The notes beneath the pieces were generated by a model, which did no database searches, had not been told where the DNA came from, and saw nothing but the letters and a program-made list of their open reading frames with translations. DNA of 64,000 nucleotides from contig WBVU01000004.1 in the NCBI GenBank assembly GCA_009192285.1, positions 1,820,001 to 1,884,000 of the forward strand, read 5' to 3'. Position numbers and translations under genes: made by a program. The DNA is from Morchella semilibera (taxonomy: Eukaryota; Ascomycota; Pezizomycetes; Pezizales; Morchellaceae). Of the stretch, positions 1 to 64,000 are shown in pieces (positions within the stretch are counted from its first letter, which is position 1; each line of letters begins with the position of its first letter).

Positions 1-2408
1 TTATATAATCGCATGGAGTTATACCTGCAGGGTCTATGTCTCAGTGCAGGACTACCAGTGCATATATTTACAGATTCTGTTGATTGATCTTAAGCTTCGA
101 TTAACAGGTTCCAGGAATCCGGTAAATTTAAACTTCTGGTTCCAAATTTCTGCGGCTAATTTTTTGTGCATGGAGATGCCCCGTAAATTCGCAGTAGAGG
201 AAAGACATATGCATCTTGATAATGATCTTGAATTTTATTCCTAGATACATGTACGTACAAGTAGGTATAGATGCGTATTGTGGACTCATAGTACGTCTGG
301 ATCAGATGGCTCCATACAGAGAAAGGTAGGTGAAATAGCCACTTGCGTCATGATTTAGAGCTATTTCTTTGCTATAGTTTTCACTTTTTCAAGATCTCCG
401 ATTCAACAGGATAACGCCCAAAGTATGCATGACCTGGGATCTACCGTGAAAGCTGGTTGCTCACATTTTTAGGAGATGCACGTGGGATTAGAGATACGCC
501 CCAAATAAATACATAGACTATATAATCGTAGCTGCACATCTCTCTATATTCTTTCAAAAACCAGACCGTCTCTAGCCCTGCTTCACCCCGATCCCAAAAA
601 TTAGATCAGGCAATCATCGACGCCCATATATTACACTGCTACATGTAAGAAACACTTGTAAATTCTACATGCACCAAGAGAAAGAAGGGCGGTAGAAGGA
701 TGTAATTTTCGTCAATATCCAGCTATATATATATGTATAGGCAACTTTAGTTCCAGACACGAGACTCCCGTCTCGGTCAAAGAATCACGATGCTAGCTTT
801 GCAGTACGATCAACCCCACTCTTCTATACTTTGAGAACGAGAATGATTATAGTAGGACAACAAGGACCCTGCTTCTTACATGTATGTGTACTACTGTGGG
901 TCTTAACCTGGGCCTTCTAGCATAGTGATCTAACCTATATCAGAAGGGATATTACTTTCGTTACAACCAATTTCAGTACATGTATATATGCCAGTGGGCG
1001 CTAGATACTTATCTCCATGGATCCAGAGTGAATATAATATCACATGCTGTCGTTGAAAAGAACCGGGAAAACGGGGCCAGTAGGAACGGGACTATGGAGG
1101 GTTGCTCAGATGAAGACCATACCGCATACCCTCGTTACCTCCGGCCCCGTAGTTCTCAAGAATGACCCCACAAAGAAGTACATATACATGTAGTCTTCAA
1201 CCCCTAGCCCTTACCGTTGACAAGGTACATGGATGGTGCATTTCGGCTAAATTTGTCTGTTCTCACACCAGGTTTCTCTCCAACATGCATGTAGGTACAA
1301 GGTACTTGTACCTCATCTATTTCTTCAGAAGTGATATTGCTGCGCGTCCGAACCCCGCAAAAATAAAGGAAAACGCGATATTTACCCGGGATATTAGCTT
1401 AGATGATGGATGAGATGGAGAAAAGGTTCTTCATTTTCCGGTAAGTGAGGCGATCGAGGTTGATCTTGAGTCTACTAAACGGTGTAGGAGGAGTACATGT
1501 ATCTCAGCTAACAGATAATTGGTCCCAGCCAAGATATGAACCATTGAAAGAGCTTTTAATTTTGTTAAATATCTCTGGAGCCGTTGTGATTGGGTGGTTA
1601 AAACAATTCGTTATATATCAATATATCCCCACCACGAGTCTTATAGAGTCTAGATCTAGAGTGGAATAAAGTTCGCCGGTATCATCGAACCCTAAATGAG
1701 GCATCGCTCGACGAATACCGAACAGAAGCTTGTGGGAAGAACTTTATCCTAAATACATCTTAGAAGCTGCCCTGGTCCTTCTCGGTAAATCAAATATTAC
1801 AGCGGATCATCTCCTTATCCGACGTGTTTTCCCCAGATCTCTCCCCCCACCCCCCGCATTATTACCGGCATTCTCAACCCCTTTGGCTCTTTAACCACGA
1901 GCCTTTCTTAGAACGCGGTTAGGATTGAAACCAGGTCCACAATATTTGTTCCCCCTTTGCAACTACCATCCGGTCCCGGTTAGCTTCAACGACATGCAGA
2001 TAGTGAATGCAGGTGTTTACCTCTCTCTTAGAAAACCGAACCAGGAAGTCTAGCTCGCCCAAGACAACATTCGCTTGAACGATAGTCCGAGAGGTTCTCC
2101 GGATTGTGCTCTACAGACCGGTACCTACGCCGAGGGAAAGCCGAATGGCGGTTAAACTCAGCAGCAGGGAAATAACAACGCGTGAGGCCATGATAAATCA
2201 AGATCAACAGATATCATCGTCATCCAAGGACGGGTGGATATTAACAGTATGGCGGCTGATTTGTACATAGAGTGGAGTGGATATAGAGTTGCTAGGTATT
2301 GGTTTCCTAGGTCTACATCTATATAAGGCGACCAATCTCTCCTGGGGCGAATGAAAGTTCACCAACCAACAGCTCCCACTGCAAATTAAATTTTACAGCG
2401 CGGCCGAG
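1..2408. other. Intergenic region upstream of GH51 gene
   Basis: No convincing gene is seen. Open frames here are short, lack family motifs and are not joined by plausible introns. The stretch carries six copies of the palindrome TACATGTA (starts near 246, 640, 877, 977, 1185 and 1494). A GGCTAAA heptamer at about 1245 matches the XlnR/AraR core motif, but it is over 1 kb from the downstream start and may be chance. Confidence 0.6.
2320..2326 (+). promoter_or_regulatory. TATA box of the GH51 gene
   Basis: TATATAA followed by GG lies 83 bp upstream of the arabinofuranosidase ATG, a normal TATA-to-start spacing for a filamentous fungus. A CTGGGG hexamer just downstream (about 2342) fits the CreA consensus SYGGRG, which would suit carbon repression, but one hexamer is weak evidence. 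Confidence 0.55.
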
Positions 2409-4924: not shown

Positions 4925-5566
4925 GGGGGAGGAGTTCTGTTATGGGGGAGGGGATCTTTGTATAGTTTTTTTCTTTTCTTCTTGGGAAGATGGTGTATAT
5001 GGCATTGTATGTAGTTAAGCATGAAGGAAAAAGTATGAGTGCGGTTCCATAAATTTATTTGTTGTGTTTGCGTTGTATTTGTTGCAGAGTGAAGTCCTAT
5101 TAGTAGTAGGGTGCCATACTAGCGAAAACCAAGCCATGAGTGATAACCCATGACCAAGAACACTTGCCTCACGCCTCACGAGTCACGGCACAAACGACTA
5201 CATGTAAGTTTTCGATCTTCATTTCATTAAACTAGCCCACGATCCACATACAGAGACCACAAAGTCCATCAACTCCCACCCAGATTCCTGTACATCTATT
5301 GACGTCATAGACGTCGTGCTAATGACCTCACCTCACCGTCCCGCTAACTGATGACCGTTCCTGTTCCCCAATGCAAAATGCAAAACGCAAATATAAAAAC
5401 CCAAATGCCATGCCCACCCCAAAATGCTAAAAAGATACAAACGCCAGAGAGAGGACAAAAGAGAAACGAGAGAGAAAAAAAACCATAAACCCAAAAACCG
5501 AAAAGCCAACAACATATTTTTTACACATATAGAAATCGTACCGTATCGTACACCACCACCACTACA
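4925..5566. other. Intergenic spacer between GH51 and Hmp1-like genes
   Basis: It holds the GH51 3' region (T-rich, near 4965-4980) and the promoter of the next gene, which is A-rich with a CACCACCACCACTACA stretch just before the start. No gene is seen. The open frame on the minus strand at 5333-5620 is hydrophobic low-complexity translation of the A-rich strand and is not supported. Confidence 0.6.
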
Positions 5567-6014: not shown

Positions 6015-6280
6015 TGCTAACTAGCTGGTGCTGGTTGTGCGTGTTAGCTAAGTGTATGGCATTGTATCATTATGGGTTTCATGTTGTATCGTACCTTGAG
6101 AAGCTGTTACTGTAGCACTTTTGTTTCTCCTTCTTCTTTTTTTTTTTTTAGTTGTTAAGTTGTTAAGTTGTTGTGTGGTTATGGTAGTGTGGTTGTTGCA
6201 ATTCCCAGAATGCATTCAGTGCCATTTTCATAATCGTTGTCATTATCATTATCGTAAACGCTCTCTCTCATCTGGCAAGA

Positions 6281-6882: not shown

Positions 6883-8863
6883 GTTGTACTTTATATATTT
6901 ATAAATATATATATATATATATAAGAGGTAGTAAGGAAATATAAAAAAAAAATGGAATAATAATAATGATGATAATAATGATAATGATAATAATAATGAT
7001 AATATAATAATAATCACAATAATAAGATATTAATGATAGTGGTATATAGAAGGAAAAAAAGGGGAATAGTAACCAGTACTATGAAGAAGGTAGTATCGAC
7101 CCTGTGATTAGTGTGGTTTGCCTGATTGCTTTCTTGAATGAATTGATGATGTGTGGAGCGAGAGAGAGAGAGCAGGGCCCATTATAAAGAATTGCAAATT
7201 TCATCGTTGGCGCCCTGACAATTCAATTGGCATTCAAGATAGCCCCCCCCCCCCCTCAACTCCCCAACAGTACTGTAGTGTGTATGTAGGTACATGTAGG
7301 TACATGTGGAGTTAGAGTAGCTTAGACATACAATGCGTCTGTCCCCTTCTCCTGACGTCTCCATTTGTCGCTAAAGACATGTATAGAAAGAAAAGAAAAA
7401 AAACAAAGTGATGATCATGAATGATTTCTCTCTTGTTCCCGCGTCCGCGTTTCAGGAGTGAGGCTAGCACAGCTCAACGGGTTTCGTCTTTCTTTCCCTT
7501 TCTGTATGTCGCCTTCTGTCTTGAGGTGAGAGCTCCCCTGCGCTAGTTGATCTTCTACTCCAGATTGGGACATTGCTATTCATAGTAGCAACCAATCAGA
7601 GTCCGAGAACAGGAGAAAGTCTACTAATGAGGCTCTCTTATGAGGTAGGACTTGGTAGTCTTGGAATCCCCATGGTACCAATTTTATCAAAACTGAGTAC
7701 CAGTACCCGCCGTCAGTCTTCCCTTCCCGTGCTTTTCTAGTGGCGCTTAGAAATCCTGGCAGAAAATCGTACGTCCTACCCGTCAAAATTAACGTATGTA
7801 TTAACGTATGTACTTAGGCACATGGTACACAACATAAAAAAAGTAATAAAACCTCCTCCTGGAATCCGGAATGGGCGAGCGCGCGTTGACGTCCTCATTA
7901 TCCTCCTCAACTCAGCCCTAGTAAGGAGGTTGCTGGATATAGATGTTGCAAGCGCCCGTCGTATACGATTTCTACTTTAAACGTTAATTACTATTCTATA
8001 GATCTACATATCCAGGTCGAGCTGATTCTCATCAAGAGATCTATCTATCTGATTTTGCGTAGTGTTATAAGATACGCGCCGCTGAGTCGCGTGCCAGGTC
8101 AGTGGTATATGTATCTAAACAACAGAATATGTAATTAATGCATACATACTACTACACCTTTGGGTACGTGAAGCAAAAAGACCTACAGCTTCAGCCCAAC
8201 ACCCTTTCCCCTGTAGAAGGGAAGGGGGGCCCGGGGAAAGAGAATATAAAAAACATTACATGATGTCCATAGGAGAATGGATACCACGTTGTTGTAAAAG
8301 CCCCACGCGGGGCCGAACGAGCTAGTGGGGCTTGTAGCGGCAAGTTCCGTCCCACGTAGATAAATGTACATGTAGAGTACATGTAGTTCTACAGTCGTCG
8401 TCAACTATCATTGACATGATGCAAATAATGAAAACACACATCCCTTTATCTCATAATACGCAACACGATAGAATCTTCGAGTCACAACATTCTCCTAGGT
8501 AGCAAGCTTACCTATCCAAAACCTTCATAAAGAAGTAACAAGATCCTCCTTCGCCATCGTTCCTCATTCTCCTAGAAGGGTCGTTCATGTATCCCCGGGA
8601 GGGAAAATCTGGGTGGGAGGGTGCCCTTATAAGTCCTAGCTTCGGTGTCTTGTCTACATGTAGTCATAATGATTCTTCTACATCTGAATATAAATATTAG
8701 AGAGAACAAAAACAAAGGTTTTACTATTGGCCGCATGCTCCCTACATTGTTCTTCTAATGTCCTGTATTTGATCCTTCCCTAGATAGTAATTTTTACATA
8801 CCTGCCCACAACTTATATCTCTAATACTCTATCCGCCAGCCCCAGTAAAAAGATATCTAGGCC
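6883..8863. other. Intergenic region with A/T-rich simple repeats
   Basis: An AT dinucleotide run (about 6905-6922) and an ATA/ATG-type imperfect repeat (about 6955-7015) lie just upstream of the membrane-protein gene. TACATGTA occurs at about 7291, 8367, 8378 and 8655. A tRNA-Lys-like hairpin lies at 8299-8332 and is listed separately. No gene is supported; open frames are short and featureless. Confidence 0.6.
8299..8332 (-). repeat. tRNA-Lys-derived hairpin fragment
   Basis: Read on the minus strand, the segment begins GCCCCACTAGCTC and ends CCCCGCGTGGGGCT. These match the 5' end (GCCTCGCTAGCTC) and 3' end (CCCCGCGTGGGGCT) of the tRNA-Lys genes at 42.6 and 59.6 kb, with the anticodon region missing. 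The first seven bases pair perfectly with the acceptor 3' strand, whereas the intact tRNAs have G-T pairs there. It is too short to be a tRNA. It may be a deleted pseudogene or a relic of a tRNA-derived repeat. Confidence 0.5.
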
Positions 8864-9811: not shown

Positions 9812-9842
<31 letters not shown>

Positions 9843-11963: not shown

Positions 11964-13931
11964 TCTTAGAAATAAATTGTCGATTTTAAAAGGGAAGATC
12001 AAAAAAGGAAAGAAGAGATTTACTAGGGAACGAGGGACGGTAATGGTAATTCGGGTCGGGATGAGGAGATGGGATGATGGATGGGGGAATGAGGAGGATG
12101 TGGATGAAGATGGTAGGAATGAGAGGGTACGAGAAGGCCTTAAGAAAACGATTAACCTATTTCAGAGCTCAAAGACTCGGCATAGTTTGACACTAGGACC
12201 AAATCTTTCCTATCATCATCAACAGCCACAATAACTGATGTAAACAAAAAAAAAACCCTCATTAATGCTAAAGAGCTAAAATAAACTATTGACCGAGTGA
12301 CATTTTGTGATTCTTGGCTATCATTGCGATTGATTGATTGATTGATAGTGACTGTAAACTGGTACATGTGGTTACAAGTATGTGATTACAAGTACATGTA
12401 TCTCTTTGACAACGTGATCTTAGGAATATTTGTTATGTAAATTTTCGTTTTAATTTTATTGGGTGTTGAGTTTGCATGATACCGTTATAAATATTAGACA
12501 AACCGAATTTTCTTTTTTGTTTTTACAGAGTTTGTACGCATCTTGGAAGCGAAGCCCTAGAGGTGGCGTAATCATGATCTACATGTCTTTGTTCTAGCAC
12601 GTAAACGCCCACACATTTAGACATATAAAAATGAAGTCTGTTTGTCAGCACAGTAGATACATCATATTAAGAACAAACTCGGCCTTCACGGCCCTACGCT
12701 TATAGATCTGACAAGGCCCCTTAGCCTTCCAAACAGGCCTTATTGACATATACTCGAGCCCTGTGGGTTCTAGCAGCAAAAGTGAGAAGAGTGAATGGTG
12801 TTGCCTAATCGATCGTTGCTTAGACAACAGAGAAAAAAAAAACCCTACTCTTCTGCTAGCCTACTACTACATACTTAACTACATGTAGCCAGCCATCTTT
12901 CTGCTGCTCTGTCACGGCAGACTAAATCTCCACACAAAGTGCTTGAATGGCCTTGTGAGCTGTAAACTACGGATACCGCGAATCGATGCTACATGCTATT
13001 CTAAGAGGGAGAAATGACTTACACAATTACCATGCAAGGCACCATTTGAATAAGCCATACTAAGAAAGTACCGGGTCCTCTTAATCGGAACAATACCTTA
13101 CTTCATCAGGGCTCTGGTAATCATCTCTAAGTTCCTAACCTACTATATACGGATAATGCTCGTCTGTTCAGTGCTGGTGCGGGTAAGTAATGTACTGGCA
13201 GTTCGTCCTGGCGGGACGTGTGCTTGGTTACACGTTGACTGCGCGGTGCACGAATGCACTAATCTTCCAGAGCATACATGTACCCACATCTTTGAACGGA
13301 TTGATACCCAATGAAGTAATAGCATTAATGTCTTAGGCCATGACGAGTGATATTCTATGATCAAAATCCCCATATGCCTCGCGGGCCATCATGTACTTTG
13401 TTTTCATACTCAAACTCATGTATATATATCTTTTCTATACATGTATGTGTATACCACAAGTCCTTCGTGTGCTTTCTCCAAGATTCTACTAGACACACAT
13501 ACCTCATGCGCGGGCAAAAAAGAAAGTGGAGAAGAAACATAAGTACCTAAGCACTCCATGACTCTTTCCCTAGATACCCAATCCACAGTGTAAGAGAAGT
13601 CTATAGACTTTTGATAGTGTGCGGAGTATAATTTCAAAAATAATAGAGATACATGTAATCATATACCCGCACAAAGTCTAAATTTTATTATGTTAGAGTG
13701 AATGTAGGCGCTTGCACTTGTACCACATTATACAGGTACATGTATTACATTTACTTTTTTTGACTACATGCACTACATGTAGCTTGTACCCACGTGGTCA
13801 ATAAAATACATGTATACCATGTAGCGCCAATAGGTAAGTACATGTCCACCATCATTCCCCTGATCCCTAATTACGTAGACCTAACCAAATCTCGTCAACC
13901 ATATATCCCGTCGGCCATCTTATTTGTGGAT
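11964..13931. other. Intergenic region with TACATGTA cluster
   Basis: No gene is supported. TACATGTA occurs at about 12393, 12880, 13275, 13438, 13650, 13737, 13774 and 13807; the last six lie within 540 bp, directly beyond the 3' end of the aminopeptidase gene. A short GATT repeat sits near 12330-12345. Confidence 0.6.
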
Positions 13932-27252: not shown

Positions 27253-30200
27253 GTTTTTTTCTTTTATTATTATTTCTTGTCCATTTTCTTATATTCTCAT
27301 TTATGCGAGGTCTTGGTTGGATATCAGGCCCCTTTCTTCTAACTACATTCTTCGAATGACCTGGGGTTGTTGCTTCTTCGGTTCTAATTTGTTTTAGTTT
27401 ATGATGTTTCACGACTAGTCTGGACGTGTCTTTTTGGCTTTTGGCTTTTGTGTTTATTGTTTGTTTCCTTATTTCTTGGCTACTACTGCTGCTACTACTG
27501 GGTGGGAGAAGGAGGGTCCTAATATTCTTTTTTTCTTTCCTTCACGGACTGGATGGGGCGGGGATCTGTATACAGTACTGGTTACGACACTTGACATGAT
27601 CATGATTTGCTTTTTTGTTTGGTTTTTTGTTTTCTGGCTTCTTGGTTTTTCTTGTTCTGTATCTTTAGCGGTTTCTGTTTATTTATTTGTTTTTCTGTTT
27701 GTTTGTTTTAGCGATACTTGGGGGTGGTTCTTGTCTTTTTGTTTACTTTTTTGGTGCCGGCGGTTGGTTGTGATGTAAGATGGATTGGGATGAGCAAGAC
27801 TACATGTAGTTTGCTACTGAGATTAGGAAGACATGGGGGATTCAATATATTGAATGAAATTGGAGTTATATATCCACTGCCGTGTGTGTGTATCTCGCTA
27901 TGTGACTTTCATAAGTTACTCCACTATTCCGCTGTAACCTGCGGAAGATAAACAAGCTGCGGGTCATTTGTCGATCCTGTACGTAAAATAAGCAACACCG
28001 CAAAGACAAGACAAGTACTCCCGTCAAAGCGCTCTCGGAATATCGGTGTAAATCCCTCTCTCTTACCCTGTCTCTTTTATTATTGTCGCGCTTACTTGTG
28101 TGGCTTAAAAAAAAAAAAAAAAGACATAATATAGAGTTGATCAGAGAGTGATCTAGCCCACCGTTTGATGGATCTCGATTCCTCCAGTTCTTGTCGACTC
28201 TTCAAGCCCTACAGGCCAATCTGGAAAGCCCATCCATCCCCATTCGCAACCACACGCAAATCATGTGATTTTGAGCTCATGCGAGGATCTACGGTTCCAC
28301 TGTCTGGTAAGCGCCTCCCTCCTTCGCGAGCCCTTGGTAGAGTATGATAGGGTGTGCCAATATCTCGTGCCTTGGTTTAAATGGTGGGGGCGGTTGTAAA
28401 CAACGGATCGGGGAGGGCGAGAGGGTTATGAAATAAAATGAGATGTGAGCCGTTGTTTGGTTGGTTGGTGGTTGGTTGGTTCGCAATATCAACAGGGGGG
28501 GGTTGAGTCGGTGAGAAGTGGTTTCCATGGGTTTGTTTGGATGAGAGAAATTCACAAGTTGTTTCACGCAACGGGTCTAGGCTGCTAACCCGCCGCAAAG
28601 ACCGCACACCGCCCTACGATGTCGTTCCAGGACGTTTAGTTAGCCTTAAGCAAGTAAGTACCTTCAAGTGGGGGGAGGAGGGGAGGAAGGGTGAGAGGGA
28701 AGGGAGGGTTCGATCCGAGCCGGAGGACGGAAGCGCGGCAATTATTACTGTGGTACAGTTTTGGTAAGCGATCATGGAGGTGGGGAGTGATGGCCTGTGA
28801 AGTTGAAGGTTGTATGTAATGTCTCGAGTTCCTGACTGTCTCAGATCTGTGTGATTCAGCTGAGGCAATAAGATTTGCTTTTACGAATTAATAGACCCAG
28901 GAAGGAGTGTTATATGTAACATTTCTCTGATATATGATGACGTGATTCGGTTAGACAGAGTCAACGTCTTTGATCTGTGAATAGTCTGAGTCGGTCGAGA
29001 GTATTGGCCATCATCACCAAACACAGGAGCTCTGATGGTGGTTTTCACAACACAAGACTATCGTGTGCCTCGGTAGTCGTAGATGATGGTGGTCCAATTG
29101 TCTCGAGTCTTTACTGTTAACGTCAGCATCCAGAGGACCAGTTATTTGGTGCGTTTATTGGTCGGCGCGGGATGGTTGGTGGAAGGAAGTTCAAGAACCA
29201 TTGGCGGACAGTGTTCGCTAAGTAGGTATGTATATTTTTGAAATCTCTTATGTGCCCCCCCCTATGGTCTGAGACTATAACTATACATCATAGGATCTAT
29301 AAACGTCCGAATAGAGTATTATGATCAGAGCATCCTCCGCCAGCCATCGCAAAAGATCCTTGTTGGATGACGGTCTTTTTAAAGGAAGTGCTGTATCCTT
29401 CAGGGTGTATAAGCCGCACTTCTGCACTTTCGAATCTCTGCTATCCGGCGTATATTTAACCCCCTATGGAAAAAAACACACCAAGGCCACGATGGTTTTA
29501 TTGGGTAGGAGATAGGAATTTGAATTGATATGAGACCAGCACCAGAGGAAGAGAGCGAGCGGTAGGCCAAGGGGAGTGTCATTAAAAGCCACCGATGCCC
29601 GCTATACTACATGTAGCTATTCGTGCTGTGCTTCATGATGATATGAAACTCGAAGCACCGCGTTAGCTGTAGGAGGCATTGGCTATGTCCGACACTTCAC
29701 CAACCATTCTCCTACCGAGACGATGTGACAGTGGGTAACGTGGCTCATCATGAGTCGCTGATGGCTTCCTGCCCCCAATTGGGAGTATTCGCTCCCTGAG
29801 AACGATAATGAGATATTTGAGAGAAGTGCCGTGGACCATGCTGAAAATATCGACGTGATGCAAGATCAACTAGCTACAGTTTCTGACAGGCACTAGTGAT
29901 GGCGGTGTAGCTAGGATTTCCTTGCTGGTCTTCTGCAATTGACCATTTGAAAGCTTAAAATTTATCTTTCGGCGCCAAAATAACCAGTATTTTCCTGGGT
30001 TTTACCTAATATAAATCTAGATTGGCTAACAGATTTCGGCCTGTGTGTCGGGACTATTGGTGTTTTCACTCTTACACCATGTGATGCCACCAGTCTTGCT
30101 CCGTACATATGGCCCATGCCCAAAAACACTCGGGGTCTCGACCTCCGGCTCAATTGATAACTGGAGACGGCCGTCACATCAGATTGAGGGCAATAAAGAT

Positions 30201-33111: not shown

Positions 33112-34714
33112 GATTTAGGAGATGGTTTGAGCTGATCCGGCCGGTGAGAAGGATGATGTTTTGATAACTGGGGAGGGGTAACTTGTTAATCGTAAGCTAT
33201 AACAACAGTTGGAGAGGGGAATGCATTTGATTTCAACACGTACACCGTACACGAACATCAAATTAGCGGGTTCTTTTTATCATAACCTACATGTATTAAT
33301 ATTAATGTACCTTTTCTATCACATTGTCAACTTCCTGCAGAGATAGCTGTACTGAATAATAACACACCCCCACCATCATTCTTAATTATTGTTTTTACAC
33401 TCCTTCACTTCTTAAGTACATGTACCCAGGGTGTCGGAAAGTGATGCACATCCGGTGGCTTCATAGCCACACGAGAATCAATTTCCACACCAGGCTATTT
33501 CAAGGTAATTATGAGTGTTCAGATACTCCTCATCAAGTATATGCTTAGCACTTAGGTATGGTAGAGAGGTTTTGTACGATTTTGTTGTATTGTGATAAAG
33601 TATTTGGGCGTTGTCTAGTCAAATGTGCATCACTTTCCAACACCCTCATGTCTCGTTTGTACCTACATGTACATGTATGCTACGATAAAACTGTCCCGCT
33701 GTATAATGTACATGTACACACATGTGGTTGGCCTGACAACGTTAGCGCGAGAGTATACATGTAATTCTTTGGCTATGGTCATAATTGGTTTGACACAGAT
33801 AAGTACATGTACATGTATTACAGCAGTTCTCAGAATACTAGACCCAGCGGATATATTTCACAATGTGGTGAGAGTCATCCCTCAGTAGCCTATCAAGAAT
33901 GCCGCTAAGCTTTTCAGGCTACCAGATTTAGCCAATAGGGTAATTATTTTTCTTTTTCCGTTCCAAAATTACCGCCGGTTGTGGTTGCAAGCATGCATAC
34001 ATGGTGCTTGGCTCAAGTCAATCGAGTGATTGATTATGACTAAGATTCTATAAGACCCGATATAGGGTCATCCTCATAGCTACATGTACATACATGTACA
34101 AGCCACCCCTGCAGCCGGGAAAAAGGTTTTCTGTGTCAAAAAAAGGTCAATACAAGAAGCCACGTGTTTCACAAGTATACATCCACTAAACTCCCGATCT
34201 CCTTTGTTGTGGCTTCTCACCACCTCTATTATCATTTAAGACGCAAAGAATAGACTTCCATGGCCTGATCCGGGTATGATCCCATGTAAGTAAAAATCGG
34301 GCCTCTGTCAGCCTCTTTCGCTTAGATCTTAGGGGGGCCCCGTAAGTAAAAAATACATTTTATCCTATCCAACCTACTAATCGAATCATTTACAAATTCA
34401 GAACCGAGCTTAAATAATCGATAACCTCAGAATATCCATCATAGCAACCTCATGCACGAAACGGAAAGGAACACTCCGGTAGACCAACATAGCTGAAGAT
34501 GTCAAGGGAAAGACAAGAGCGGAATACAAGAAAAAAAGTCATATCAGAATTCAGAGATCGTGCTTCAAGCATACATCTTATACCCCTTAGTAACAGGCTA
34601 TCTGAGGAATCACTTGAAGCTCATCAATCAGATGGTTAATGGTTTCTGAGCATGTAGAAAGGAGCTATAATCTCGAGTTAGTAATCCTCAAATAGCCCCG
34701 GAAGAATCAAAGAC
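33112..34714. other. Intergenic region, densest TACATGTA cluster
   Basis: Ten TACATGTA copies lie between 33288 and 34098, some overlapping as TACATGTACATGTA (33664-33677, 33804-33817). A foldback element occupies 33430-33646. No gene is seen; the plus frames near 33558-33888 are translations of the octamer cluster. Confidence 0.65.
33430..33646. mobile_element. Candidate MITE with about 24-bp terminal inverted repeats
   Basis: The left arm starts AGGGTGTCGGAAAGTGATGC and continues ACAT; the right arm, reversed, reads AGGGTGTTGGAAAGTGATGC then ACAT, one mismatch in 24. The arms enclose about 170 bp of noncoding, AT-rich DNA. No target-site duplication is clear, and no transposase is present. 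It is probably a small non-autonomous DNA element or its relic. Confidence 0.6.
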
Positions 34715-37106: not shown

Positions 37107-38287
37107 TACGGCAACTCGAGTACCTAGGAAAATTCAAACCTCCCCAGACCCTGAACACAGTCAGTCAGTTAAAACACGTACTTGACTACTAGCTAGCCAG
37201 ACTCGCCCTCAGTAGTAACTAGGTATATAAATATTATTCAGTCGCACCTCGCTACACCGCCAGCGTGTGCCAAACCCCTACGAGAGAGCAAATATACGTG
37301 GAGAAGGAGTCGACAGCTACATGTATGTAGCTGCAGCCAGCACTAGTACAGGGGTAGGGGAAAGTCTTCAGAGCTACACCGGCCATCATAGTTACAACCC
37401 CATCACTGTCAGTACTGTCACTCACTTAGACATTGTAGGCAGGTAGGCAGGTACATGTGGTGTTGAGATACCTCTAGTTAGGGCTGATATATGAAGGCAC
37501 TGTACCTTATATACCTACTACTGCACTGCACTGCACTGCGCTGCTTTCAGGCGATTGGGCAGGCCTCTACCCTACAGTACCTGAAATGCATCAAATACCA
37601 AAACCAAGTACTGCTGTTTCACAAGCCGATACGCTGGACCTCGCAAATCCGATCGATTCGGCTATGATTCTCCCCCCCCCCCCTTTTTTTTTTCTTTCTT
37701 TGCTCGGCAAGGGACATAACGTAGTTCTCGGCCAATAGCCCGTAGCTACATGACATCTTACGCCATCTACGTAAGTACATGTATGTAGATATTTTTTTTT
37801 AATCTAAGTTTTACATACAATAGCCCATCGATATCCTCCCTCTCTCTTTTTTTTTCCCCCTCCTTCCCCTCTCCTCCCTCTTCAATAATTCCGATTTCCT
37901 AATCATAACATCCGTACAGTTTTTTTTCACTACTACATACTTTTTTTGTTTGAACTTTTTTTTTTTTTAGTGCGAGCCTCGTGCAATTGGTGTTTGAGAG
38001 AAAAACAGCACAGAAAACAAAGAAATAATTAGACTCCCTCCTCTCTCACATACTGTCTTGAGCTCCCCATAAATACCCCCCTCACCGCCTACTCGGCCGC
38101 TCCGCGTAACCGCTGCAATCTAGCAGAAAGAAATGCGAAAGAAAGAAAAAACGCGTTAATTTTTTAAAAACACAACCAAGAAACCATAAAGTAGAGAGAA
38201 AAAGAAGAAAAATCTCATAATACGAAGCTATATATTAACTAAAAAAGTGAGAGAGAGAGGGGGAGAAAGAAAGAAATGGCACTGCAT
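36397..38287. repeat. Intergenic region with GA/GGGA microsatellite
   Basis: A purine tract of GGGAGA units passing into a GA run occupies about 37039-37107. Other small arrays are GGTAAC x3 (about 36675-36690) and CTGCA x3-4 (about 37521-37545). TACATGTA occurs at 37318 and 37776. Several T runs lie at 37680-37960. No gene is supported; much of 37.7-38.2 kb is the 3' region of the Tho1-like gene. Confidence 0.6.
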
Positions 38288-42623: not shown

Positions 42624-45600
42624 ATGCCTGAAGAGTGCAGTCTGCGGTATAGGAATGCTTAGCTAAGCGATGGAGATGGTCCATCACAACAGTCATGTCT
42701 GGTAAATACAAAGTTCCCTCTTCCTCCTCCATATACATATGGCCAGTACCGGTGCCAGAGCTCCCTTTCCAAAAGGAGGGGCCGCTGGAGTAGTCCTCCT
42801 TGCGCGCCGTAGGGGCTGTAACATACATACATGTAGCCCTTTTTATGGTCTCCCAAGATATGTATGTGGGGTGGAATTATATATACCGAGCTTTGGGGGG
42901 AGGGTGTACAGGCAGGCAAAGCTGGAGCCGCGTAACAAGTCCTCCTGCTCCGCCATGGCCGCGGGTGGCATTGGAGGTTGTATAAACTGCTTCTTCGAGA
43001 GCCGTGAGTAGAATAGAGCGGGCGCCACGCATCGTGGGGTGGGGTTCATGTAGCTCGTTGGACGTACTGGCGCCTTGCTGGGGTTGATTGATTGTGGAGG
43101 AGCGGTGGGCTGTTGTAAGTACATACTTGTACTTTGTGTTCTCCCTTCTAAGGTACACCTGTCGGCTCTGTTCTGTTTGCCTGGAAGCTTTGCTGCAAGC
43201 ACCCCCACCCCCACGGCAAGGGGCGGGTAATTATGGTGACCTGGCCCTTAACCACTAGTACTAGTACTAGACCATCGGCATGCTTGGGGGTGGCTTTGCG
43301 CCGTCATTGAGCATTGGACTGGCGTGCCTGTTGATGCCGAAGTTTAAGCTACCGCCAAGGTCCAAAGTAAATTCAGGAGTATCCATGTCTACCAAACAGT
43401 TTGCCAACGTGGTAAGAGGATGGATGGGTTGGCCTTCCCAGAAACCGATATGGTGCCCTATGATAAAGTTACATGTAGCTGCAATGCACGGAGAGGTTCT
43501 TTGCGCATTCCACCTGCCGCGGGCAAGAACGGCGTAGTGCAGCGAGAGAGCCATAGCTGATAACCGTGGTAATTATAAACACTGGTGAAGTTGCTTATGA
43601 GAAGAGGTCGCTTGGGTGTGAGTACTGATTAATCCCCCCGGTTCCAACGCTTTCTAGCTTGCGGTGGATATCGATCCGGCGTGCGTATCTTTTGGGCGCC
43701 TAGGGGGTTTTTACGGACTCTATTAGCTTGACATTAAGCCTCCAGGCATAACTAGTTCAACAAAACCTAACGAATGGCCGTCTGGTCACGCATGTATACT
43801 ACAGGAATAGTCTTTGAGGGGGTTCAGAGCTTGCAGCTAGATGCTGAGGTGGGTGAGTTATTTATGAATGTTTTGATTTTGCTCAGGGGGTGATTGTGGT
43901 TCTAGCATACATAGCATGACGTGACGTCCAACAAGAGTTCAAGATCAAGTTTGCTTTTAAGCTTTATCCCGACTACAGGAGGGTTACCCGGGGCCATGGA
44001 GCCGTCCTCACTTGCTATGGGGAAACGGGCTACATGTACACATCATACCCACATCTTATCCGCACCTATCCACATCCACATGTTCGTTCGAATATTATCT
44101 GGATCTGTGACCAACCTAACGTCTAGAAAGTCCACCAGAGCATCGACCCCACACACGACACGGCTAGGCACCTCTCCTTCATGTACATACCACCACCCAT
44201 TTCCCCACCCAATTCCTTCTCCCGCAACCACTAGCCCAGCCTCACAATGCATACATGTATCGACTGTAGTAATCGTTCTAATCAACCTAATCCTTAGAGT
44301 ACACTTGATAAGTAGATGTAGCTACCGGGCCTGAGAAGTATTTATCCCAGTGGTAACACTTGAGTACACCCCTAGTACATGTAGAGGTTACTTGTCACAT
44401 GTAGTTCAGATCGCAGGTCAACCCCTACTAAAGCGATAGGAACTGCATGTAACCTTCCCGCCGATATCATCACCCTGTCACAGAAAATCACTCGGAGCCA
44501 TCGGTGCTAACCAGATACAGCTAGGTGGTTCAATTGGCATCTAGAATACCTGTAGTGTACCACCATCGGAGACTAAAAGCACATGTACCCAACAACCTGG
44601 ATCACGCCCCCCCTTATTACCCGCAGCTTTCCCACCCCCACCATGCCAGGTCTAGGTCTGTAGCCCAACACACACCCCAATGGCAAAATTCTCAAAGGTA
44701 CTTACAATACTCTGTCCCTGGACATTAGCAGCCTGTACTAACGTTGACACATCTCAGGTAACCTATTGCTCGTGGGATCTCGAGAATTAAACCCTCGCGT
44801 CATCGCTCCTCGGCGTGTGTAGGGCTTTTCCCCCTTCCAATCCCTCAGCTAGCACCTAGAAGCTGTGCAAAAGGTTGACATCGAGCAGCGGGAAATTATC
44901 ATAGCAGTGCGTACCTGAAAGCTGGTGGGGCCAGACGAATAGGATTATCTTCTGGTTATTCAATTGCAAGAGGACCTCTTCTACCAATTTACTCATGGAC
45001 CTAACTTTCTTTCTAAACGCCACTGGATGCATAAGAGTTTATGTAGCCCGGGGGGGGGGGGACTATGATGCCTAGGATAATAACAAAACTGCACTTGTCC
45101 TCTACCTCCAGCATCAAAAGACTACACGCCGTACGCATACCCCAAACACTCAGTGCGATCGATGGATAAGTGTGGCCGGCCAAGGGGTATTACCCATTAC
45201 TCGCAACCAAACTTCTGTCGGGTAAAAGGAGTGAATCTGTTTTCCAGCCCAGTTCATGAGACAACTGCATTTACCCGGTACCCCTGCATAGGAGGAGGAA
45301 CGGATCGACGAGTGATGGATAATGATTCGATTTCCAGTAGCAATGATATAACCACACTAAGCCCTACCTTTCAATACAGCTAAACGAAACTCAAAAAAGG
45401 AACCTAAATTAAAAAGTATCTTTATCGCATAAAGCTAAAGGCTGATACACCTGTAGCCACAACCACAATTATGAAATAAAAATAAGATATATGAAAATAA
45501 TTTAAGAAAAACGAAGGCAAACCCAAGAACGACAATCAAAGTCCTCCCAACAGCTAGGAGCAACGAGGAAAGTCCAGAAATATTGATGTTAGCTCTAAAA

Positions 45601-49492: not shown

Positions 49493-52400
49493 TATTACCT
49501 CAGATCATCGGTGGAATTGTCTTCTGATCAGGCTGGATTAGTAAACTGGTTCTCTGAAGATCATTCCCTATGTGCGGTCAATTGATCCAAGCCAAAGAAA
49601 TGGCAAACAAGAACCCTATGCGTTGTGTGGCGTTAAACGATTGAAATTCTCTCCACCCTAAATCTGCAGCTGGTAAGTTTTTCCTTCGAGAACTACCTCG
49701 GGAATGCTGTTGCTAATTGGGGGCAGCGAGTAGATCTCATAGCCGTCGCTCTCAAGTAGCAAATACAAAAACAATAACGTTGAACTATCACATCATCCTT
49801 TCGGTTATATTCAGTGCCTGTACATAACTGTGAGAATTTTCCAATAGAGTGGGGTAATTTTTCGTGCGCAGCCAATACATTCGCTTTTTATGTTACCCCA
49901 TTTATGGCCATACTTTTTTGCCTTCTTTGGTTAAAGCCCTTAGTGGCGGAGCTAGGTTGTGAAAAATATGGGACAGGGACAGCCGAAGGGATAAATTCCA
50001 CAGCATTAAAGCATCCAGCAGTATATCTCTGGTTAAATAGTATGCCAGGTTTCGACACCCGAAATTATAAATCTTGGATCTGGGGGCGTAGGTCGTCTCC
50101 AGAACCCCGGTAGCTAAAAGGCTTGCCACCGCCTCCACACAGTCAAATCGTTCCAAATATGGGCACGGCTTGATAACGGCCAGATGAAATGCGCACCTCT
50201 GGTCGTAACAATTATGGTTTCTTCAGCTGACACGAATTGCGTACGATGATTTTTTCACTAAAAGGCCCAACCGGGGCGATTTTGTCCATTACCAGAATCC
50301 AAACTCGAAAAATTGTTCAACGATCCCTAGTGGTTCTTGAACTAAGACAAAATAAGTGTAATGGAGAAGACGCATATTTAACACAAGGACTCCTAATCCT
50401 GTTTGCGATGCTGTGCATCAGTTTCAGAAAGTCGTTCTAAACTCAACACATATGGAGTGGATTGCCAGCCGAGTGATCTCTTATGACCATTTCCCCTTCT
50501 TGGTGTTAACCTGTTTTCTTGGGTCTGTCGCAGTAAGGCAAATTTTTTGAAATAAGCTATTACCCATGTGCATTCCCCCCTGAGCGTACGGCATCCTAGT
50601 CCGGCAATCCTCGGAACAATAACCGGGTCCAAACCAAAAGGAAAATGTAGCTATCTTGATACGAATGGAGCAGCATGCATTTTTCTGTGGTATCAATAAG
50701 CGAGGCCCGGAAATGTCCGCAGAACACCGCGCCTGTTAAAGATAGTCGGGGGGTTGTGCATAGGATCGGTGTGTTCGTTGACATGATGAAGATATGGATG
50801 GATCCCGTAATCTGCTCAGGGATTCACTTCTTTGGTGCACAGTTCCAGTGGAGAGAACAAGCCTTTACGTTGATCTCGATCCAGAGCACTTCTTTATTGC
50901 TTGGCCAGTGGACAATAATTCTATGCGGACAAAACTGATCTCATGTTTTCCGCTTTGATCTCATATCTGAGGATATTAGCCATCCAGATTGTTGTTTACT
51001 GATTAATGGAAACTACATGTAAGTGCAAACAGAACCGACTCGGGTTTGAGCTTACTATCTGCAAGTAACGTAGCCCATTCACATGATTGTACAGGTGTTC
51101 CATTATGTGTGCTAGGTGAAAGGAACGATTTAAATGGTGCTTCTTACATCACCTCGAACATTTGGTCGTATCCATGCAGGCAGAAAACTATAACTTCTGC
51201 CCATGACCATTATCGTTTTGTTGGTTTCATGCCGGCGCCCAAGTATTAAGTTGCCGCACAATGAACTAATTAATAGCTTGTGCAAATTTCCTTGACAGAA
51301 TTCTAGACTCAAGTTGTTATTCGACCACGTTTCATCTTACCTTGCCGCCGAAGCATCAGTTCTAGTTTCTCCACAATTAAGTAATCAGCACTATTATTAT
51401 GCCCCAAGTGTCCATAGACCTTGTTGTCTTCTCCCAAAAGCTTAGATTCCTTCTCATGCGCTGTTTTCTGGGACAATCTTCAGCACAATAGGGGTTTCCG
51501 AGATCATCTGGAAATCTCAACGATTGGATCAGAATATCTCTACCATGCGCCTTCCAATGAAGCCTACTAGTAAACCAGGTAAGATTGATTACTCTTCTTT
51601 CTGCAGAATTCTGATCGACACGATTCTCGGCATGCCCCGTTAGATATCTAGTGCTTTGCCTAAGTTCTTTACTTTTTTTTCGGGGGTGTCAGAAGGCGAT
51701 TCGAAATGTGACTCAAGACAGAGCTTGGTTCGCTCTGGTGATAACTGGTACATTAATAGATATAGAAGAGATCCTTGCTTGCCTGTTCTTGAATCCCTCC
51801 GATCCGGGCTGATTTGAGAGGCCAAATGTGTCGTGTTAGGAGCTCTACTTCCCCGCTTGAAAACTTAAAATCTCGGAGCTATATCATATTGACCATGAAT
51901 AACCTGTAGACCAATCCAAATCCACATTAGTCACAGGTAAGTTTATTATTCACAGAAAGTCGACGGAAATCCGAGACAGTTGGTATGGTTAAGAATTTCC
52001 TTCTGACATGGCATCACAAAAGCAGACATACATTTATTGGATCAAAATATACGTTAGTATCTATGATCGCTCAAGGCTGAGCTTTCGCAATGGTGGGGTC
52101 CATCATAAGGTTTAACATAGGCAGAGCTCAAGGTTCACACATGATCACTCGACTTCGTATATAACGATCTGGCGATAGACGCGGGTTAGAAATATATGTC
52201 GCAGATAAGTATGGATATTAGCTCATTTGGTAATAGTCATAACATATAGCCTTTTATCAATCCCAAACCACGCTACATTGAAATTCCCGGCTGTTTGGAA
52301 ATGATTTGCCTGTCGGTTCAAATATTGCCCCGACTAGTATTTACGCAATGGTGGCTAATTAAGCCTCGATGTATACAGTCGCACATCGCTATGGCGGAAC

Positions 52401-54289
52401 TCAATATACCGGACCCCTTGCAATTGCTGTCTCGTACGAAGCTGTCGGGGATTCTGCAAAATCAATTTCCTATCTCAGGTTCCTTGAGAATACTTAATGG
52501 ATCTTGGCCATACGGAATAGCGAGGTGCAACTAATACACATACGTACCTATAGCAGCCAGTCATTATAAAGTGAGCCGAGTCAACCTCCCATGATTTAAA
52601 AGGGGGATCAACCATAGGTACATGCATACACTTGTTTTATGTCGCGAGTACGTAGGCAACCACTCGTTTTATATAACATTGACCTCTATGCAGATTCGAT
52701 TTTAAATGGGAGGGCGCCAATCGATTGGAAGGTACGTGATGCTTAGATAGACGAGATCTCCCCGTATTCTCCTAATATCAGTATGCGGTCATGACACACC
52801 TGATTACTTATTTGGGGGGGGGGGGGTAGAATTTCATGTGTGGGAAAGCTGTACTGAAGTATGGATTACACGAGTACCAAGGGACTCCAGATACGGGACT
52901 CCAGTCATGAAGGATCTTGATCGTGCGCTGCGCACAGACCAGTTAATTATTCTGGTGCATATATATACATGTACCTAACCCAACCCTTTCCTTCCCTCCC
53001 CGAGACATCCTGAAAAAAAGCTGTCTAAACGGCATACAGTTGACCCAGTGGATTTGAAAGTGCTGTCTGCCAAACCAACAAAAAGCAACGCATATCGTGG
53101 GGAAAGGCCAGGCATATCATTGAAGCACATTTTGCGAATTATATATTACTAAATCATACATACTGGTATTTGGAACGAAGAATGGACCGATCCAACCCCC
53201 CTCAGCTCCCCGCACCTCGCTTGTAAAAGTGAATTTATGTGTGATTACCATGCCACATCCCTCCCACAGGGTGTGATGAGGGATGGTTGTGGACGAGGTT
53301 TTGAGCTCTTTGAGCTGCCCTTCTACTCTAGCCCAGAAAATTTGGGCTGCTACACTTCGACGTACATATACATGAACTAAACACTTCTTCTTGTGCTTGC
53401 AGGTCATACACGTATGTAGTAAATACATACATTCCTAAACACCCTTGATGTGTGGTGAGTCGAGGACCCACTCAAGGGAATACTAATATTTTTTCCAAGT
53501 TGCCTTATTTGACGGTTTCAAGGTTTCATTTTATCTCCGCATTTAATAATAAGTACCCCCCTAATTCGGGCGTCATCCGTATGCATGATTTTTGGATCCC
53601 TGCAACAGCAGCATACTGGGGACTTTGTCAGCCTTTTTACCGCACTCACGAAAATTACATAACAGTAGCCAAGGCAGCCCTATCTACCTCGAACCCATGC
53701 CCACCTAGTCCACACACCGTTAGCCATGTGCGTTGCGGCAGCTAGGATCTCAAGTGACCAAGGAACAAGCTGGTCATGGAGAGGAAGAATATGGGTAAAT
53801 CGGCACTGCCGAGAAATAAAAACACCTTCAATTGATTCAGGGCTGGAGAATTTCAGGAGGAGGAGGAGGGGGGAAGGCGAGGATAGTAAGATAAGCATGA
53901 AAAATGTTGAAGATGAAGAATTACAGGTGACCAAGAAAGACGCAGGGCAGGGCAAAGAGACGCCAACATACTGATCGGATTGATATAATTACAGTACGTA
54001 TTGTAGTTGGTGCATGTAAGTACATGTATATATGAAATTCGGTCTATTACAGCAGTGCGCGCGAATTGATCAACCGGTTACGTTAATGCTTCCAAGCGGG
54101 TACATGTAGTAATGAGATTATAGTGCTCTCAAGATCAAAGGTATGCAGCTCTAGCTCTACTGCAGCTGGTGCATAAGAATGTTGTAACCATTAATCAATT
54201 ATTGTAGCACCAATAGTCTATGTGGTAGGTATAATGTATGTACATGTATGTAATCAAAATACATGTACTTAGACATCCAACCCAGAGCA

Positions 54290-54365
54290 GAGCACGTATG
54301 AGAAGTATAGCACATACTCTACCATTAACACCATTAACACACAGGCTCTATACTTCTTATGCTCT
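54290..54365. repeat. Imperfect inverted repeat
   Basis: AGAGCACGTATGAGAAGTAT on the left is mirrored by ATACTTCTTATGCTCT on the right, with a 4-base gap. The loop holds a short direct repeat ACCATTAACACCATTAACA. It could be a relic foldback element or a chance hairpin. Confidence 0.4.
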
Positions 54366-54944
54366 ATATACTCACTCGATCTACAAAAAGTAGGATTTGC
54401 TCTGGAAGCACAACAGGCATATTCCTGGATATACTAGGCCCTGGCCGGTGATCCCGAGGGTCATAGAGGCATTATCTAAGACCACTCTGAGTCCAGGTTC
54501 AATAGTGGATCAGTGATTACATGTAGGAAGTATAAAATGTATCCATTGATTGATCATCGAGGGGTTACTGATTAGGTAACTGGTGTATCCCCCCGACAGC
54601 AGGGAAATGGCAGAAGGAGAATTCTCTTGTAAGCAGCCCGCGCATAGCACAGCTCCGTTATGTACAGACGCCGCTCGACTCACTGGATTGTTGTTCTGTC
54701 TGGTACATGACATAAGTAAGTATATGAATCCTGTGGTTTGTGGTGTTGTTGACCGCCCCTTCAGATTATATTTCTCTGCTACTACCAGCTCTTCGCCTTC
54801 CCTTCTCTCCTCTCCCCCTATTTTCCCTAAGGCTCACTTCGGATAATAATTTCTACCAGCGGTAGTTACTTTAATCTGAGAGTGAGAGAGTAGTAGTAGA
54901 GAATAGAGAGAGAGAGTGTGAGTGAGTGAGTGAGAGTGAGAGTG

Positions 54945-54978
<34 letters not shown>

Positions 54979-56609: not shown

Positions 56610-59600
56610 CAGTGAAGTAAGGCATGTACCTGTACATTCATTCATTCTTCCTAATTCTGCTTCTTAGTTTCTTGTATCTTCTTCAATTTTTTTCTTCCCC
56701 CTTTTATTTTTTGGGCTTTGCATTTCGGGAGGCGTTTGAGTTTATACCAATTATGATAGAGCATAGCCAGTACATACATATAGAAGCGTAATCCTTTGTC
56801 AAGTATTTTTTTCTTTTTTTTTCTTTTCCTTCTCTTTTCTTCCCTACATATTTTATGTAGGTATCAGCAGGGTTCAACGAAACGGGTTACAGCGCTGAGT
56901 TTGATTATTGGCTGGAGGAGATTTTGCGACGTACCTCCTGAATTCTCTCAACTCTACTCTCAGGCCCTTCGCCACAAAGTAGCCCATAGCGTCCAATGAT
57001 CAAAATGTCTGTTGCTGGGAACAATCTAGAAGGATGATATTACAAAACTTTTCATTTACTACCCCAGTCTATTGAGCTAGCTAACTATGGGAATTACTTC
57101 ATAGCTTCCCTCCGACCTCTATGTGCACGGTCCATCTGAACTCCCCACAATGTATCTACTCTACGTACTCTATAGATCTATGCACACACATAGAGAGAAC
57201 ATCGCCACACACGTTCCGTGTGCAGAGAACACTTGCATTCAGGTATTCCTTACTTTAAATCGGAGGTACCTGCGTCACTCTGCACATTATATGTTAGGTA
57301 GGATTTCGGAGGTAATGGTGATGAGGTGGTGCGATATTGGTGGTGATGGTGGCGCGATGGTGGTGGTGGTGATGGTGGTGGTGGTGGCGACATACGGTCT
57401 TGCTGGTGGAATTTAAAAAAGGCAAGCCTTTGCAGTCATCATCTATATATTATCCATCTTATTGGCTGGTCTCATAACTACTTAAGTACATGTATATATG
57501 CAGGGAGGTTTAAAGCAATATATCCTTTCGTATTAGCTACATGTAATTATAAGTGTCTTGTACGGGATCTTTTATCCTTTCAGCTTACCGTTGGTACTAT
57601 AATACTAGATGTATGTAGTTGTAAGTACTCTATCTGTAAGTTCGTCCTACTCACCCGAAAAAAAAAAAGGTTTGATATTTTACACCTAAAATATATCAAC
57701 AGACTTTAGAAGAGGCCAGCCTCTACCGACGGATACGATGTTTCTGTGGCTTACGCCACGGAGAGAGTGGTTGCCACTAGAATAATACGGTATGTATATT
57801 GCCAAGAGATATATTGTGAGCCTGACAACCATAAAAATACAACAGCGACAGTTGAGATACCGAGATAGACATAGGTCTATTGCAGGTTACATATATTTAT
57901 TCGATTTTAATACATAGCATCAATCGACCACTTGTAGCTTCTAGGATTTGTGTAGTTTGTTTCGAGTGATGGGCCGTGACCGTGTACTTAGTAGGCGGAG
58001 AACTTGATGTGGGGAACATTTTGACAAGTAACCTAAGACGTACAATTTAATTTCTCGTGTGCACTAAGATATACAGTGTTGTGCGCTCGGGCTTGGAATG
58101 GGGGGGACCTTGGGATTGGGATTAGTATGTAAGTACATGTACCTATATTTCCAAGGAAGATGCCTGAATCCCCCATTAATAAGCTGCATGGACGGGTAAG
58201 TAGTGTGCCACTCATTGTGCATGATCTGACATCAGTACATAACTTTTACTGCGAGGAAATGGTTAATTCGGAGGGAAACGGATATCGAACCATTTAGTTG
58301 ACCATGATTATGGGCATTTTAAACTAGGCCAAGAGTAGTTGATCTGACAGACCACGCGAAACAATACATGTAGCTATAATTTTTTTTAGCGTGTATAAAG
58401 TTTATAGCTATCGGTTAAGATCCGGAGAAATGCCGAGTTAGATTAGTCATGCGATACCGATACTCAATGTTGCATTCCAGACTTTGTAGTATAAATAGTA
58501 CATGTATATCTGGAGAATCGAGCCTAAACAAGGTGAACAGCGAATAATTGTACCTCGCCTCAGCTCACGTATATATATCGAGACTAACTTCCTGCGCGTA
58601 AATCTAGATAGGAACTGTATAGAATTATGGAAAGTGCCACTGCAGTAGGATAATACGTATAGGGTGTACAGAGCTCGAGTCCATAACTTATAATTAGTCT
58701 ATAGAAGGTTTAGGTATAGTTTGATGGCTACTCGTCCCTCCATGACGTTTCCGAACACGACCAATATTGCATATCATACAAATAGGGGGGGCTTGGCGCT
58801 TTTTTGTGTGTATGCAATAGCAGTCGTGTTCGGAAACATCATGGAATTAGTAGTAGTCGCTCGCCGGATTCGGTGTATAAGACCTACACCATGTAATTAA
58901 TTTACTGATTCTGTCCTTGCAATGTGATAGGTCTGTTAACTCCTAGATTCCCAGAAACTACGCGAGAAGGCATGATTATATTCATGAATGAGCCTCATAG
59001 AAAGTGTTTACCGCATATTAATATTATGTATATGTTATTTAGGCTAGCAAATGTCGTCATTATTGCGCGTCGAGTAAGGAGAAACGACAACATCAGAATC
59101 TCGAACCTCTCATAGACATGGGAGTACGTATTGCAGGATATACTAGTAAGCTCAAGTTCTGAGATTAAACCAGTACCTGAGGAGCGCCTTCTAATTCATA
59201 GCAAGCGGCCCGCGAAAATTTAAAGAAGGTGCAGTAAGTTAGTTCAGGAGCTTGATAGCCTTGATATATATCGCTTCTAGCTGAGACTAGACTTGGTCCG
59301 TATTGTGCAAACTTATAATTACTTCTATTTACTCTTGACTAAGCTTCAATTTATCTTCTAGCTATGTAAACCTACCACTGTTGGACATATATTGAAGACG
59401 TCACGCTGAATGTAAACTCCTCTCTACCATAACCCGCCAAACAGAAGTTGTTAACGGCTATGCTTGGCACTTTTATTAGCTACTAAAGATCTCCAATTTA
59501 GGAATCAGTAGAAGTAACTAAGTTACCCAAGGCTAGAGCAGACTACATAATTATAAGGAAACCCCAGCGCCACCATCGGAGTAGTTGGATAAAAACTCTG

Positions 59601-59618: not shown

Positions 59619-59691
59619 GCCTCGCTAGCTCAATTGGTAGAGCGCGAGACTCTTAATCTCAAGGTTGCGGGCTCGACCCCCGCGTGGGGCT
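59619..59691 (+). tRNA. tRNA-Lys (CUU), divergent copy
   Basis: A 73-nt cloverleaf nearly identical to the copy at 42.6 kb, followed by a run of T (59691-59697) that would terminate RNA polymerase III. It differs at three sites: D-loop C to T; the top pair of the anticodon stem becomes C-A; and T54 in the T-loop becomes C, changing the B-box GGTTCGA to GGCTCGA. These changes hit structural positions, so it may be weakly expressed or an early pseudogene. Confidence 0.85.
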
Positions 59692-62678: not shown

Positions 62679-64000
62679 AGTGAATAATGCCCTTCCGAAG
62701 GGTGAGGGGGGGGGGAGGAAGGAAAGGGAGGTGCAAAGGCACTTTTGAGGGGGGAGGGGGGCGAGTTGTTGTGTCCTACTTCTTCTCTATGTTTTGCTTA
62801 TTGTTGACAGACCCTATTCCCTGTCCGCGCTCCACGGGCCGTTGTGTCGAACCAGGGCCAGTGGATGAGGATGGGATGGAATGAGCTCTGGTGTGGGCGA
62901 GGATATGTGATGTGAGTGGACGATGGGGGGAAGAGTGCAGATGGGCGCTTGCTGGATGTTGTCTGAGATGTTTTCGCCTATCCCGGGTTGCCACAGCGAT
63001 CACTCCTGTTTACCGTCCAATTGTTTCGCGTGGGGACCTGACTTGACTACCCCCAAACCAGAGCCATGATGACTTGATGACTACTTTAATCAGAGCTTAG
63101 GGAATGTCAAAACATAAAGCAGAAGCCATCATGAACTCAAAGCTCCCCCCTTGTTTAATATTCTAGAAGAAACGTTGGGTTAGGGTTCGTACAAATCTCC
63201 GACACACTAGACATGCAACTCTACTCTAGCTTCATGCACAGCTCTTAACTTTTCTACTTACTAGCACGGGCATCTCTTACTCTACATTCGACACTCCTTC
63301 TCCCCGGATACGAGTTCCTAAGAGGATTGTACGGGGGGACATTCCAGAAGCGGTGCTGTTCGGAGAGTGTCAGTGCGCCGTGCATGCTGGAATGGTTCTA
63401 ATTTTGCAAGTTAGATAATCTCGTTTCGTTTCATGTTTCATTGAACTTACTCTTATTATGGCAATTGTGGCCGTTTAGTTTCATTTACTGAATCCGTTTG
63501 AATGGTTAAATGAGTAAGTATCATTTCAACCCGTTTCAGTACTGTAATGACTTCACCTCCCCGATGGAGATGGGCGCGAAAAAAAACAGGAAAGCTCGTT
63601 TATCGTAATTGTAGATACCTACATGTATCTAAGCAATATATCGGGGAAAGCCTCGGGACCCCCAAAGGCTCGGCCTTTAGTCATATGTAAAGCCAATAAT
63701 GTCACTATCCCCCCCTCCCCCCTTATTAACGGCGGCGGAAGGATTACGCCTATTTTATTATTATTATGCTCACGACTAATGGTAAGGATATGGAAAACCT
63801 TCATTTCATAATGCTAGCGCAGTTTGAGACAACTCCAGACTCTGGTTGGTCTCGAGGTTGATTGTATCTGTCTGTACGCATCAATTGGCCAGGTCCTGAG
63901 AAATATGGGCAGGAAAGATTAAAACTTCTCGTTTTAATTAATATGCTAGTGTTATTCTACTTTATATCCTGTTTCAATCCAAGCCCATTCTTTAGCCGAT
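62679..64000. other. Promoter and intergenic DNA to the window end
   Basis: G-rich tracts at about 62700-62765 lie just upstream of the minus-strand gene; read on that strand they are C/T-rich, as in many fungal promoters. One TACATGTA lies at 63620. C runs lie near 63709-63722. No gene is seen before the window ends. Confidence 0.55.

Follow-up and report, generated by a model that had tools for sequence, protein, structure and literature searches.

The palindromic octamer TACATGTA occurs in 53 exact copies within the window, by which we mean the whole 64,000-base stretch of fungal DNA analysed here, and we tentatively read it as the putative site of an abundant, cooperatively binding, sequence-specific DNA-binding protein, a reading that we hold to be somewhat less than evenly probable. 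A previous sequence-only reading had counted about 52 copies by eye; the 21 starts it listed are all correct. In 100 dinucleotide-preserving shuffles the octamer appeared 0.71 times on average (sd 0.89, maximum 3), and Markov models of orders 1 to 3 predict 0.85, 1.44 and 2.38 copies for the whole window. The expectations at orders 4 to 6 are high (9.8, 30.8 and 47.6) because the octamer itself fills its own sub-words; an intergenic model with the octamer masked predicts 0.7, 1.1, 1.2 and 2.1 copies at orders 1 to 4. The excess is more than 20-fold in all low-order models, and of all 8-mers present ten times or more TACATGTA has the top z-score. The runner-up palindromes, ATATATAT (16 copies), TATATATA (14) and ATGTACAT (7), all remain far below it. 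Our tests were chosen while the work progressed and P values between 0.001 and 0.02 are to be read accordingly; the main excess is independent of them.

The motif is sharply defined. With the octamer masked, intergenic DNA has 45 one-mismatch forms where 23.1 are expected (21 transitions where 8.2 are expected and 24 transversions where 14.9 are) and 229 two-mismatch forms where 210.5 are expected, and versions carrying a one-base deletion or insertion are present there without a clear excess. Dispersal as one repeat family was rejected, since the direct repeats contain no such family and no pair of flanks reaches 18 matches in 30; the same applies to a microsatellite, as tandem runs of the octamer never go beyond two units in the window. 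It had been proposed that the octamer is a maintained signal. That it is maintained or actively produced stands, given the more than 20-fold excess, the sharpness and the lack of a single repeat family in the window, but maintenance itself is unproven, since transposon footprints left by a recent burst would give a similar picture.

The flanks are not random either. Among the 106 half-flanks, A at −3 (T at +3) is found in 58% against 34% at any intergenic TA, T at −4 in 49% against 32%, and T at −1 in only 8% against 25%, all of these frequencies being computed with a slightly different list of gene spans. Within sites, A at −3 shows no correlation with T at +3. The dinucleotide TA occupies outer bases 3–4 on both sides of 11 copies, on one side of 11 and on neither side of 31, an excess of both-or-none over independence. 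Over the first 14 flank bases, 51 pairs share at least nine matches compared with 25 in column-shuffled controls, a similarity of the near flanks such as neighbouring half-sites would give. In 9 of the 106 half-flanks, where 0.5 would be expected, a TACA begins at outer base 3. Two of these nine represent one exact pair viewed from either side; in the other seven, which lie in a 10-bp register, the near half TACA is intact and TGTA is missing, while the reverse is never seen. Because the near half alone is kept (7 vs 0), arrays of half-sites are favoured over random decay of second copies. The 6-bp register has no such asymmetry (5 vs 7), so that support for half-site arrays comes from the 10-bp register alone. 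A control with GTACAT/ATGTAC was discarded because these hexamers share bases with the edges of the octamer itself. Even when the octamer is masked, intergenic DNA contains more TANNTA hexamers than expected from a Markov-3 model (TACGTA 2.4-fold, TACATA/TATGTA 2.1–2.2-fold, TATATA 1.5-fold), and TA dinucleotides repeat in intergenic DNA at 4-bp spacing (1.54-fold).

The copies are clustered more than chance would give, with 39 of the 53 falling into six clusters of at least five (6, 8, 10, 5, 5 and 5 copies; see the table). Gaps of at most 60 bp occur 11 times compared with 3.7 under random intergenic placement (P 0.001), and the largest gap between copies measures 14.0 kb against 6.9 kb under random placement. 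Exact copies sit close together as a 6-bp tandem twice, as a 10-bp pair once and as an 11-bp pair once. One-mismatch forms are likewise concentrated near the octamer, 12 lying within 20 bp of a copy where 2.7 are expected and 14 within 40 bp, four of them at 6 bp and three at 10 bp.

Table. Positions of the exact octamer copies and of the genes named with coordinates in the window
Feature	Position	Strand	Context
6 TACATGTA, cluster	246..1501		0.9-2.2 kb upstream of the alpha-L-arabinofuranosidase gene
alpha-L-arabinofuranosidase gene	2409-4924	+	PF22848 and PF06964
1 TACATGTA	5199..5206
1 TACATGTA	7291..7298		one-mismatch copy 10 bp further (7301)
3 TACATGTA	8367..8662		two are 11 bp apart
8 TACATGTA, cluster	12393..13814
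1 TACATGTA	27801..27808
1 TACATGTA	29608..29615
1 TACATGTA	30646..30653
1 TACATGTA	31670..31677
10 TACATGTA, densest cluster	33288..34098		between convergent gene models; 6-bp tandems 33664/33670 and 33804/33810, 10-bp pair 34081/34091
2 TACATGTA	37318..37783
tRNA-Lys (CTT)	42550-42623	-	convergent intergenic block with octamer cluster
5 TACATGTA, cluster	42828..44383		between convergent gene models
1 TACATGTA	51014..51021
1 TACATGTA	52966..52973
5 TACATGTA, cluster	54021..54525		about 0.7-1.2 kb upstream of the ORF at 55239 (+)
5 TACATGTA, cluster	57487..58506		between convergent gene models
tRNA-Lys (CTT)	59618-59692	+	convergent intergenic block with octamer cluster
1 TACATGTA	63620..63627

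Two inverted repeats lie close to octamer clusters. One, at 33428-33451/33623-33646 within the densest cluster, has 24-nt arms that are 96% complementary and 171 nt apart; the other, at 58728-58856 and adjoining a cluster, has 46-nt arms (80% complementary) around a 37-nt loop.

Gene spans were set by hand from our own models and Pfam hits and are approximate, as are the gene ends at 14240-15332, 32309-33111, 34715-36300, 45763-46800 and 60830-62678. Besides the arabinofuranosidase gene, whose modelled introns are short (51–64 bases), a SAP/Tho1 protein gene and an M28 peptidase gene were recognised. The genes present and the shortness of the introns suggest a filamentous fungus of ascomycete type. 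Six-frame Pfam scans covered 1–2.4, 6.9–8.9, 12.5–22.3, 27.3–37.25, 42.6–55.2, 56.6–60.8 and 62.7–64 kb, and in the intergenic stretches scanned no further family exceeded the cut-off, the M28 peptidase and a weak match of the same gene to M20 aside. Weak methyltransferase matches below the cut-off were found at about 35.1–35.6 kb on the minus strand and at 26.5–27.2 kb.

None of the 53 copies lies inside the modelled gene spans (21.6 of 64 kb), which bears out the earlier observation that called coding exons are free of the octamer. This is not by itself proof of avoidance, since composition alone would place only 0.10–0.17 copies there. If, on the other hand, the copies were spread evenly over TA dinucleotides, 11.9 of the 53 would be expected in genes and none is observed (P about 1e-6). 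The absence from genes is informative only against a process that places copies evenly over TA dinucleotides.

All 53 copies are thus found in 42.4 kb of intergenic DNA, about 1.25 per kb. As far as the rough gene models allow, convergent blocks hold 20 copies in 10.4 kb (1.9/kb), tandem-gene blocks 15 in 10.0 kb and divergent blocks 11 in 18.3 kb (0.6/kb); the window edges account for 7 in 3.7 kb. A role of the octamer in promoters only is unsupported, convergent blocks being denser than divergent ones in these rough models. Copies are also few near coding ends: the 100 bp next to modelled start and stop codons hold none (3.5 expected), a distance of up to 300 bp takes in three (10.1 expected) and the closest is 180 bp away. 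A limit of 170 bp gives a P of 0.003, the limit having been picked after the nearest copy at 180 bp had been seen. The 14-kb stretch from 13815 to 27800 contains no octamer, and within it the divergent region at 15.3–22.3 kb represents about 7 kb in which no gene was found. RIP was rejected as the cause of the octamer-free 15.3–22.3 kb, composition and RIP indices being like those of other intergenic blocks. At 21483-21507, intergenic DNA carries GTTGG five times in tandem.

The protein postulated in our preferred reading would recognise double-stranded DNA as a symmetric dimer, with TACA and TGTA as its half-sites. The extra half-sites, set off by a fixed 2-bp gap, place site starts 10 bp apart, which is about one turn of the helix, and the protein would act from clusters in which adjacent half-sites aid binding. 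We infer that a protein reads the site, that selection would keep the site, and that its role would lie in distal intergenic DNA rather than in promoters alone. What favours a binding site is the combination of excess, symmetry, sharpness, clustering, non-random flanks, half-site arrays, distance from gene ends and absence from modelled genes. Several observations argue against it. Ordinary transcription factors generally have site densities far below 53 per 42.4 kb, and a binding site explains such an extreme density poorly. The rough gene models show no promoter bias, with convergent blocks denser than divergent ones; the 6-bp register lacks the half-site asymmetry; and the one-mismatch excess leans to transitions, as neutral decay would.

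The strongest rival, which we consider rather unlikely, is that a cut-and-paste transposon of the Tc1/mariner type left the copies behind as excision footprints. Elements of the Tc1 type duplicate TA when inserting at a TA and leave two bases per end when excised, giving TA-CA-TG-TA. Repeated hopping at preferred intergenic TA sites would scatter identical scars, and insertions into genes would be lost by selection, with which the complete absence of copies from genes agrees. The two exact 6-bp tandems and the four one-mismatch partners at 6 bp fit re-insertion at the scar's own TA, and the leaning of the one-mismatch excess to transitions also suits excision footprints. The octamer is a known Tc1 footprint, TA-CA-TG-TA (PMC3520976), here in 53 exact copies, and A at −3 and T at +3 agree with the preference for ANNTANNT of Sleeping Beauty, a related element (PMC2756404). 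That preference does not, however, predict the depletion of T at −1, nor would scars be expected to lose only the far half of second sites in the 10-bp register (7 vs 0). No source element is seen within the 64-kb window, and the Pfam-scanned stretches of it contain no transposase domain. Of terminal inverted repeats that are flanked by TA and lack the octamer, the window has 4, compared with 2–8 in 15 simulated sequences; for those starting with CA the figures are 2 and 0–3. MITE or Tc1 copies in the window were rejected, terminal-inverted-repeat pairs being at chance level. The shorter scars TACTGTA (4) and TACAGTA (3) are unenriched (3.6 expected each), and very many excisions would be required. 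If the copies were neutral scars formed at a constant rate until now, the ratio of the one-mismatch excess (22) to the intact copies (53) would imply that they accumulated over roughly 0.12 substitutions per site. Transposon scars could give much the same picture as a binding site.

The clustering might also be expected if the octamer were an architectural or chromosome-organising signal (a boundary, loop anchor or replication start) and not a site of gene regulation, with clusters marking intergenic positions. The concentration of 39 of the 53 copies in six clusters of at least five is compatible with this, as are the large octamer-free stretches (largest gap 14.0 kb against 6.9 kb at random) and the location of three of the six clusters between convergent gene models, rough as these are. 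However, no consistent change in GC or AT skew is seen across the six clusters, and we regard such a signal as distinctly improbable.

An RNA element, for example a UGUA-type 3′-end or RNA-stability signal serving both strands of convergent genes, would account for the dense copies between such genes. The TAYRTA hexamers, which are 3′-end efficiency elements in yeast, are enriched too (TACGTA 2.4-fold, TACATA 2.2-fold, TATATA 1.5-fold). Such an element has little to recommend it given that copies are lacking from the 170 bp next to modelled start and stop codons, that many lie 1–2 kb upstream of genes and that exact two-fold symmetry is not required of an RNA signal. Equally implausible as the main source is functionless slippage of a TACATG unit during local replication. 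It would explain the pair of exact 6-bp tandems and several one-mismatch partners in near-tandem position, but no run exceeds two units, and it is contradicted by most copies, which are isolated by tens to thousands of bases within unrelated flanks; its contribution is minor at best.

The earlier remark that no described function was known for the octamer in this setting calls for correction, since TACATGTA is an abundant promoter motif of Phytophthora for which the factor is unknown (PMC3520976, PMC3597505), as well as an Irx site and a Tc1 footprint (PMC3520976). As motif-1 it is found upstream of 12,070 genes across the Phytophthora genomes analysed in PMC3520976, and as M93 it has 4,150 occurrences in P. 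infestans promoters, where it was taken to reflect general growth (PMC3597505). The oomycete and fungal motifs are the same palindromic octamer, strongly over-represented in both; the oomycete motif was described from upstream regions and linked to expression, whereas those of the fungal window show no promoter bias in our rough gene models. A fungal report of the octamer was absent among the matches listed, and the three papers matched by a whole-word search all concern Phytophthora, to judge by their titles. According to PMC3520976, the octamer is a rare Tc1 excision footprint in C. elegans, identical in sequence and in its TA-centred context to the copies described here, which differ in reaching a density of about 1.25 per intergenic kb although no element is seen in the window; the same authors judged an origin from transposon scars unlikely for the Phytophthora motif because of its conservation and abundance.

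PMC3520976 also gives TACATGTA as the preferred site of Irx homeodomain proteins, and the Irx sites ACATGT and ACAnnTGT are used in PMC4726432. An Irx-like (TALE) homeodomain protein is one candidate reader of the fungal octamer, named only because these published sites match it. The Irx (Iroquois) proteins are animal factors, and the fungal site needs all eight bases. The core ACATGT outside octamers is without excess in the window (73 in total, 53 of them in octamers and 20 against 16 expected at equal base frequencies). The site of the BEN-domain protein NACC1 shares the CATG core, and the test oligonucleotides ATTACATGTAAT and TTTACATGTAA include the octamer, but NACC1 is a human protein and these oligonucleotides carry T just outside the octamer, the base that is depleted here to 8% (PMC11472053).

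Should the octamer be a binding site, its density of over one copy per intergenic kb would reveal, in a fungal group, a regulator or chromatin protein in very wide use, and would connect the window with the Phytophthora TACATGTA motif, which still lacks an explanation. Should the copies instead be transposon scars, they would document a burst of cut-and-paste transposition on a very large scale and would cast doubt on whether the Phytophthora motif is regulatory at all. A likeness may be drawn to HIP1, the highly iterated palindrome of cyanobacteria, which is also a single exact octameric palindrome of very high density. HIP1 is bacterial, has another sequence and is common in coding DNA as well. 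It is conceivable, although we think it unlikely and offer it as speculation, that TACATGTA is a eukaryotic counterpart of such palindromes, its clusters marking distal intergenic DNA throughout the fungal genome and being bound by an undescribed cooperative protein that, unlike an ordinary promoter factor, would organise chromosomes or set regulatory domains.
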